NCBI GenBank assembly: GCA_031082005.1
Contig: JAVHLR010000001.1
Span: 997,251 to 1,061,250, forward strand
Direction of reading: 5' to 3'
DNA length: 64,000 nt
DNA from: Patescibacteria group bacterium
GTDB taxonomy: Bacteria; Patescibacteriota; Patescibacteriia; 2-12-FULL-60-25
Shown: positions 35,826 through 55,042 of the stretch, piece after piece
How the letters are laid out: every line of letters begins with the position of its first letter
Numbering within the stretch: the first letter of the stretch is position 1
Notes under the pieces: model-generated
What the model was told of the DNA's origin: nothing
Database searches by the model: none
The model's input: only the letters and a program-made list of their open reading frames with translations
Made by a program: the position numbers and the translations under genes

Positions 35826-36836
35826 ATGACGATCTCTGAAGCCATCACGAAAACCTCCGCGAAACTCCAGCCCGACCGCATCTCCTGCGCCGAAGAAAAA
35901 CATCTTGGCAGGCTTGAAGCGGAGATCCTGTTGTCGCACGCATTGAAACGCGATCGTGTATGGCTCCTCGCTCACCCCACCGAAAAAATTCCAGCCGCCG
36001 ACTTCCGAAATTTTTCCCGCCTCTTCTCCCGCCGTCTCAAACACGAACCCATCGCCTACATCCTCGGCAAAAAAGAATTCTTCGGCTACGACTTCATCGT
36101 CACCCCAGATGTCCTCATCCCAAGACCGGAAACGGAACTGATGATCGAAACGATAACTTCCGATTTTTTCTCTTTCCTCCCCGCTAAAGAATCGTCGGCG
36201 GAGGAAATTCTTGACCGAGGACCTGTTCGAGATAGACTGAAACGAGCCCCGCAGGCAAGAATTCGCCCCGCGGGGAGTTCTCCCCCTCTCATCGTTGACA
36301 TCGGCACCGGCTCCGGCGCCGTCGCCATCACGCTCGCCAAACAATTCCCTCAAGCCACAGTCATCGCCACAGACGCTTCCTCCGACGCGTTAAGAATCGC
36401 TCGGCAAAACGCGAAGCGGCTCAAAGCCGACAATGTGTCTTTTCTGAAAGCCGACCTGCTCAACACAAAGGTCCTCACCCGACTCCGATCGGTTTCCAAG
36501 AAATCCGATTCGCTTATCATCGCCGCCAACCTCCCCTACTTACCTGAATCGGATAAAAAAATCCTCGATCCTGATGTAGTGAAATTCGAACCATCCCAAG
36601 CGCTTTTCACCGGTCGTGACGGATTGGAGCTGATCATCAGGCTCCTCGATCAAATCGCCTTCAACAGACACGGACTGCCCTTCAGACGCATCGCCGTCTA
36701 TCTGGAGTTCGACCCGCCGCAAGCGCCGAAGCTGAAGAAGCTGGCGAAAAACCTTTTTCCTGCGGCGCAGATGGAAATCAAAAAAGACTTAGCCAAGCGC
36801 AACAGATTGTTATCGATTAAAGTAAATCGACAATGA
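35826..36836 (+). CDS. prmC: Release factor glutamine methyltransferase with in-frame palindromic insert
   Basis: A 336-residue SAM-dependent methyltransferase that methylates the GGQ glutamine of release factors. The N-terminal helical domain includes RLEAEILLSHALKRDRVWLL, then PIAYILGKKEFFGYDFIVTPDVLIPRPETE. The SAM-binding VDIGTGSGAVAITLA begins near residue 157, and the catalytic loop reads NLPYLP (NPPY in most relatives). Between RPETE and the SAM motif, where relatives have a short linker, lie about 25 extra residues ([20 protein letters not shown]). These are encoded by a copy of the palindromic element. The frame stays open throughout, so the gene is probably functional. Confidence 0.93.
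   Translation: MTISEAITKTSAKLQPDRISCAEEKHLGRLEAEILLSHALKRDRVWLLAHPTEKIPAADFRNFSRLFSRRLKHEPIAYILGKKEFFGYDFIVTPDVLIPRPETELMIETITSDFFSFLPAKESSAEEILDRGPVRDRLKRAPQARIRPAGSSPPLIVDIGTGSGAVAITLAKQFPQATVIATDASSDALRIARQNAKRLKADNVSFLKADLLNTKVLTRLRSVSKKSDSLIIAANLPYLPESDKKILDPDVVKFEPSQALFTGRDGLELIIRLLDQIAFNRHGLPFRRIAVYLEFDPPQAPKLKKLAKNLFPAAQMEIKKDLAKRNRLLSIKVNRQ
36198..36271 (+). repeat. Palindromic element, copy A (inside prmC)
   Basis: Core 36214-36255 matches the other copies (CGAGG, then GTTCGAGATAGACTGAAACG and AGCCCCGCAGG). The arms pair AATTCTTG with CAAGAATT, with imperfect GC pairing further out. The TG of the core is CC here. Only one of the three forward frames of the core is free of stops, and prmC uses that frame. 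Confidence 0.85.
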
Positions 36837-43100: not shown

Positions 43101-43188
43101 GGGTCCGGATTACGTTTTTTGTGCGAGGATCTTTTCACCCCAGCCAAGCTGGACGAATACCACAGCGCAAAAAACGTAACCCGGACCC
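43101..43188. repeat. Long inverted repeat between rplY and the DUF3048 gene
   Basis: Arms of 24 nt (43101-43124 and 43165-43188, two mismatches) flank a 40-nt loop. The loop begins GAGGAT and ends CCACA, and has a small inner hairpin (CCAGC-caa-GCTGG). Size, arm length and the GAGGAT...TTC opening resemble the palindromic element family, but most of the loop differs. It could also act as a terminator for rplY. Confidence 0.7.
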
Positions 43189-44326: not shown

Positions 44327-44410
44327 GTCCAGCGAATACATTTCTTTCGCAAGGATGTGTTCGAGGTAGACTAAAACGGCCCCGCAGCAACCGAAATTTA
44401 TGTGCTGGAC
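44327..44410 (+). repeat. Palindromic element, copy B
   Basis: Core 44350-44390 (AGGATGTGTTCGAGGTAGAC, then TAAAACGG and CCCCGCAG). Arms: GTCCAGC at 44327 pairs with GCTGGAC ending at 44410, with ATTTC and CG further in and a few mismatches. The right arm ends exactly at the stop codon of rodA, and the CCCCCC that follows other copies is here part of rodA. Confidence 0.85.
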
Positions 44411-46568: not shown

Positions 46569-48765
<2,197 letters not shown>

Positions 48766-54883: not shown

Positions 54884-54924
54884 CGCATCCTTTCCATCCC
54901 CTCCGCTTTTCCCACCTCCTCCAG

Positions 54925-55014
54925 CACACGCAAGATGGTGCTTTGTCAAGCGAGGATGTGTTCGAGGTAGACTGAAACGAGCCCCGCAGCTGACAAAGCA
55001 CCATCTGGCGGGTG
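54925..55014 (+). repeat. Palindromic element, copy E
   Basis: The inner 16 bp of the arms are perfect (AGATGGTGCTTTGTCA at 54933 pairs with 54991-55006). Pairing continues outward for 8 nt with two mismatches, so each arm is 24 nt as in copy D. Core 54949-54990 reads GCGAGGATGTGTTCGAGGTA, then GACTGAAACGAGCCCCGCAG. CCCCCCC and CTCTTTC follow, as in other copies. Confidence 0.92.
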
Positions 55015-55042
55015 CCCCCCCTCTTTCTCTTGACACCATTGT

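Follow-up and report, generated by a model that had tools for sequence, protein, structure and literature searches.

The window analysed here is a 64,000-nucleotide stretch (positions 997251-1061250 of contig C3) of a 1.31 Mb patescibacterial genome in seven contigs, referred to below as G000, and it includes prmC, the gene for the release-factor glutamine methyltransferase, on the forward strand at 35826-36836. The product of 336 residues probably begins with the ATG at 35826, within a reading frame that is open from 35775. Database matches to this protein put the genome in the Patescibacteria, the closest named one coming from a Candidatus Paceibacterota MAG. It is recognised in Pfam by PrmC_N (PF17827, 3e-16) and methyltransferase domains and matches the HemK/PrmC entry 2b3t in the PDB by sequence, and its predicted fold matches the PrmC-RF1 complex of that entry with a TM score of 0.90 on the target. 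Motif I (DIGTGSG), the NPPY-type motif (here NLPY) and the reading frame are all intact, and N235, P237 and Y238, together with the GTGSG of motif I, are invariant in the PrmC alignment, in agreement with the statement of an earlier note on this DNA that the catalytic motifs are kept.

Within prmC lies an inserted hairpin element with a minimal extent of 36198-36271 (forward strand, residues 125-149), as judged from its genomic copies, its absence from PrmC of relatives and the low pLDDT of this segment; the true boundaries may be at about 36180-36285. Its conserved core, CGAGGACCTGTTCGAGATAGACTGAAACGAGCCCCGCAG, occupies 36216-36254 and is flanked by the left arm (36198-36215) and the right arm (36255-36271) of a degraded stem, both identified by arm pairing. 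Positions 36198-36220 and 36249-36271 form 23-nt inverted arms that are 74% complementary; 15 of the 23 register positions are paired, in contrast to the stems of most intergenic copies, which pair perfectly or almost so over 22-29 bp, and the RNA folding z-score is -2.4 for the prmC copy and -5.3 for an intergenic copy at 46.6 kb. The core contains stops in two of its three forward frames (TGA and TAG) and prmC takes the open one, as the earlier note had observed. That note also assigned about 25 residues to a core at 36214-36255; those 42 nucleotides encode only 14, and it is the whole 74 nucleotides that encode 25.

Comparison with other PrmC proteins places the insert in a linker that is usually short. 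The distance from the RPETE motif to SAM-binding motif I is 53 residues in G000, compared with 23, 19 and 15 in the relatives G001, G008 and G013; most of 20 aligned PrmC proteins have a linker of 15-23 residues, and the full range is 15-53. The domains on either side align without loss, with 54-68% identity for the closest relatives. A conserved segment of similar length in orthologues, which the earlier note regarded as evidence against an insertion, is absent from the three short-linker proteins, and the extra length that it expected is present, although at about 30-34 residues rather than 25. When a shorter PrmC is used as query, the match splits at the linker in only four of the 144 class genomes sampled (G000, G049, G082 and G111), and the largest gap among these split matches, 135 nt, is that of G000. 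The AlphaFold2 model has a mean pLDDT of 91 with values of 76, 53, 56 and 56 across residues 111-150 (53-56 in the blocks of 121-150), such that the loop anticipated from structure prediction appears as a low-confidence region at residues ~113-150, the remainder being a confident PrmC fold. The short linkers of the orthologues and the predicted loop together indicate that a dispersed palindromic repeat was captured in frame here, lengthening the hinge that joins the N-terminal and methyltransferase domains by roughly 30 residues.

That the repeat is dispersed is evident from the genome itself. The 74-nt prmC element used as a query finds 25 other genomic places (23 with E at or below about 1e-3), the best match being 93% identical over 59 nt with E 1e-19; the prmC core shows no differences in 39 positions from that of an intergenic copy at C3 776709, and at most four from any core of equal length. 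The presence of a repeat in the prmC frame is thus confirmed by the sequence, the dispersed copies and the intact frame, and we are confident that a dispersed palindromic element inserted into prmC and was captured in frame in this lineage. PrmC linkers do vary in length over the range given above, as would be expected if the linker of G000 were a native long one that resembles the repeat by chance, but this reading is refuted by the copy number, the strength of the best match and the identity of the core to an intergenic copy, and we regard it as next to impossible. A mosaic or assembly artefact could in principle have placed the repeat in prmC, since the genome is a draft in several contigs and repeats can misjoin; it is nonetheless very improbable, as neither arm of the prmC copy matches any other copy, the frame runs unbroken through each junction and the related genome G003 has kept the gene order around prmC. 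Among about 34 copies, prmC holds the only one internal to a coding sequence, with two others extending ~6 codons into gene 3' ends. Open reading frames at 772622 and 1041230 were considered as coding captures and rejected because both read antisense across DNA that is intergenic or belongs to a gene on the opposite strand, and those of G000 at 235231 and 803029 that overlap copies look spurious.

An iterated profile recovers 27 core copies in G000, with the consensus TTCTTAAGCGAGGATGTGTTCGAGATAGACTGAAACGAGCCCCGCAGCGAAGAA. Several lie in the window on the forward strand, including an intergenic copy with a 24-bp perfect, locus-specific stem at 46569-46658 (C3 1043819-1043908), where the orthologous G003 site carries a subfamily-2 core; an intergenic copy between two forward-strand genes at 54924-55015 (C3 1052174-1052265), common to G003 at 314.9 kb; and a degenerate intergenic copy at 44342-44390 (C3 1041592-1041640), where the G003 site has a truncated copy. 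An inverted-repeat scan adds a 21-bp stem with the divergent core GCGAGGATCTTTTCACC..CCACAGCG at 43101-43188 (C3 1040351-1040438, forward strand), which may represent a further core variant, a third subfamily. Each element consists of a core of ~39 nt on a stem of ~25 bp, with an inner stem of ~8 bp that is partly common to copies and an outer stem of ~18 bp that is locus-specific: cores are 93% identical between copies and the outer arms 31%, which is near chance. The arms nevertheless pair with their own partners, at 70% of positions in register (23 copies) compared with 36% for shuffled partners and 28-49% when slid. In a set of 39 copies, chosen from the two genomes G000 and G003 because they have arms, there are 39 mismatches in 903 arm positions. 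Arm mismatches show no strand preference (17 G-T, 13 A-C).

The flanks are pyrimidine-rich on the forward strand in most copies, and the right side often reads CCCCTYYC. Similar flanks are found at C3 776.7 kb and at prmC in a relative without the element, and the flank may thus reflect a target preference; no target duplication is evident in the copy flanks. Inverted repeats of 16 bp or more number 36 in a genome scan, and 22-23 of these carry the core, and nearly all long-loop hairpins in the genome belong to the family. The same scan contains no empty hairpin with matching flanks, so pre-existing hairpins were rejected as targets, and copying of the arms from elsewhere in the genome was likewise rejected, a search of G000 and half of G003 having given no matches except at orthologous loci. 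Rfam 15 has no covariance model that matches the element at gathering score, and viral contigs gave no match and hence no phage link. Elements also stand in tandem, two or three together, at G003 C1 440.0-440.3 and 568.8-569.0 kb and at C3 803.2-803.4 kb; the tandem neighbours at G003 440 kb are alike in core and flanks and differ in their stems.

The copies are strikingly uniform in direction, with a single orientation in 26 of the 27 arm-bearing copies of G000 and in all 13 of G003, and those between two forward-strand genes keep it in five of five cases. Nearly all lie on the half-chromosome with a steady GC skew, the flat-skew half holding few or none in either genome; whole-genome pattern searches list no copies in G003 800-1200 kb. 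We also observe in both species that one half has a strong GC skew and gene-strand bias and the other is flat (C3 0-600 versus 600-1240 kb; G003 C1 1200-1522 kb). Orientation tracks replication, its direction being read from the skew, and not the neighbouring genes. Where a copy has a minus-strand gene to its right, the foot of the hairpin falls, in about ten cases, between -18 and +9 nt from the stop codon of that gene, although single distances are approximate because the gene calls are simple ORF calls. At C3 776683-776773 and 827882-827972 the last ~6 codons of the upstream gene and its stop lie inside an arm; the G003 protein ends differently at 776.7 kb, and C-termini may therefore have been captured too.

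An alternative is that the hairpins are functional nucleic-acid elements, spread and maintained by selection as hairpins at mRNA 3' ends or as a polar signal for replication, the prmC copy being a functional one that overlaps a gene. The position of about ten hairpin feet near stop codons, the strong replication polarity, the family's near monopoly of long-loop hairpins and the conservation of arms and core of shared copies between species, at a silent-site identity of 47%, all favour it. The presence or absence of copies, however, varies at many sites between G000 and G003, the five copies between forward-strand genes are reversed relative to transcription, and the balance of G-T and A-C mismatches leaves selection on an RNA from one strand unsupported. 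The flanking sequence, rich in purines when read on the minus strand and C/T-rich and C-led on the plus strand, has no U tract, which excludes an ordinary intrinsic terminator, and the prmC copy sits within a gene. We consider a functional origin of this kind unlikely. The conservation of shared copies does suggest that certain intergenic copies have a use, or at any rate have been kept, and the label 'selfish', which the earlier note had used, is accordingly not proven.

At least seven copies in G000, all on the forward strand, belong to a sister subfamily whose core is CGAGGACTGTYTGAG..CGAGTTCCGCAG and whose inner hairpin varies. A joint pattern matched 14 of 286 class genomes; the sister subfamily is sparse in other families of the class and occurs in one further phylum genome among those sampled, and its copies outside the genus mostly have their own stem at each locus, while subfamily 1 was found by genome pattern search only in three species of the host genus. 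Core type is exchanged between G000 and G003 at three orthologous sites (C3 948.4, 1043.8 and 1070.8 kb). At the last of these (C3 1070744-1070835, G003 290.4 kb) the arms are the same and the inner core is replaced by a CCCCGCCGCTCGCGAGC.GCGGGG hairpin, a tip exchange on a conserved stem.

The stems of shared copies bear directly on the possibility that the copies are simply old, the arms having drifted with compensatory change around a conserved core. Massive arm covariation across copies would fit such a history, as would changes on both arm sides in some orthologues (C3 1052.2 kb) and the site at 923.8 kb, where both arms have changed and are only 42% and 36% identical although core and flanks are kept. 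Yet at five orthologous sites in G000 and G003 the arms are 79-93% identical, in a small and partly selected sample chosen where they could be aligned, whereas fourfold sites in 103 neighbouring genes are 47% identical. Drift to chance would therefore need far longer than the split of these species, and the subfamily-1 core was found only in the host genus. Stem conservation so far above that of silent sites implies either that stems already differed when the copies arose or that they have since been replaced, drift to chance within the genus being unlikely; great age alone strikes us as an improbable account.

The hinge of PrmC has taken up other repeats as well. It is at least 29 residues long in six of the 20 aligned proteins, and long hinges were compared with genomic DNA for G000, G003 (L084), G011 (L085), L078 and G049 (L088). 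The G003 hinge is a palindromic repeat, ATAACCCCACCCGACCTCCCCTTAAGCTAAGGGGAGG.., of which G000 has four copies and G003, over its first 800 kb, two others; that of G011 is a different repeat, found at several sites in G011, G003 and G000; and that of L078, a Paceibacterota MAG, is a repeat with 17 other matches within its own genome. The G049 hinge has a 91% match to one other place and is thus a two-copy segment, part of which might be read as the 5' half of a tRNA. These sequences are unrelated to one another, as far as seen. The PrmC hinge is therefore a recurrent capture site: in three relatives it carries dispersed repeats, three in all, that are unrelated to the G000 element, and in a fourth relative the two-copy segment. 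Such use by at least three unrelated repeats marks it as a tolerance hotspot with no special affinity for the G000 element. That a single hinge has been used again and again is the most surprising of these observations, and it makes the hinge a natural record of repeat DNA absorbed into protein. Separately, C-terminal loops of PrmC in G015 (L109) and G021 (L103) contain the peptides HPDRGAKRRAEGSLRRDPSAPLGMT and CHSRAGGNP, which by eye resemble translated common palindromic repeats.

Taken as a whole, the evidence is best explained by a dispersed element that was captured in prmC and is tolerated at the hinge, a reading that we consider likely. The enzyme presumably still works, since the hinge is exposed and variable and the insert occupies its sole stop-free forward frame, and the capture would be a matter of tolerance, not of selection. 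What moves is probably the core with the inner stem (~39-54 nt), the outer stem of ~18 bp being specific to each locus. Because orientation is fixed relative to replication and not transcription, the likeliest route is that insertion uses a single template strand at the replication fork and that the stem is formed or perfected at the target by fold-back copying, although we hold this mechanism to be somewhat less likely than not. A more general formulation, of a kind of mobile hairpin, so far seen in Patescibacteria, of which the tip alone is inherited and a well-paired stem of ~20 bp is made at each insertion during replication, is speculative and somewhat doubtful; if true, such tip-only inheritance would give the element its fixed replication polarity and its preference for gene 3' ends. 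Three observations count against the overall explanation: the prmC core is perfect yet its arms are poorly paired, unlike a neutral insert that was once perfect; the arms at 923.8 kb differ wholly despite the kept core and flanks; and no transposase candidate was found. A hairpin may be selected against within coding sequence, which would be one way to account for the degraded prmC stem. Searches of G000, whose completeness is estimated at 100%, found no Y1 transposase (PF01797) at E<=1, compared with matches in 10 of 14 control genomes, and no reverse transcriptase. The locus-specific stems and the replication polarity raise a testable question on the origin of such hairpins.

REP and BIME sequences associated with RAYT (Y1) transposases are short intergenic hairpins near stop codons, mobilised as single strands, with stems common to copies. 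The G000 element resembles them as a short intergenic hairpin near stop codons and differs in that its stems are not common to copies and its genome lacks a Y1 transposase. Integron attC sites have hairpin stems of variable sequence with a few conserved positions and a replication-strand bias; here there are no gene cassettes, and the conserved part is the tip rather than the foot. Fungal mitochondrial double-hairpin elements are also mobile, with variable stems, and lie in and between genes, but they are organellar, have two hairpins and differ in sequence. MITEs are small, non-autonomous elements with inverted repeats from which in-frame fusions are possible (PMC10969869), whereas the terminal inverted repeats of the G000 copies, judged by their divergent outer arms, are not common to them. 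In-frame capture is best known from Rickettsia, in which palindromic elements (RPE) of ~150 bp lie in frame in unrelated protein genes (PMC10969869), and the parallel that the earlier note drew holds for a dispersed palindromic repeat in frame in a protein gene, by behaviour rather than by demonstrated descent. RPE belong to a different phylum, and the large share of copies inside open reading frames that would be expected of an RPE is not seen here: the G000 element is nearly all intergenic with a single internal coding capture, in a gene tied to translation termination. Its core strings are absent from the searched literature, which also holds nothing on Patescibacteria and REP. In-frame capture of a palindrome is thus known in kind from RPE and, within that literature, new for the host group, and the form of the element, a conserved core on locus-specific stems with a fixed replication polarity, is unlike RPE and is new.
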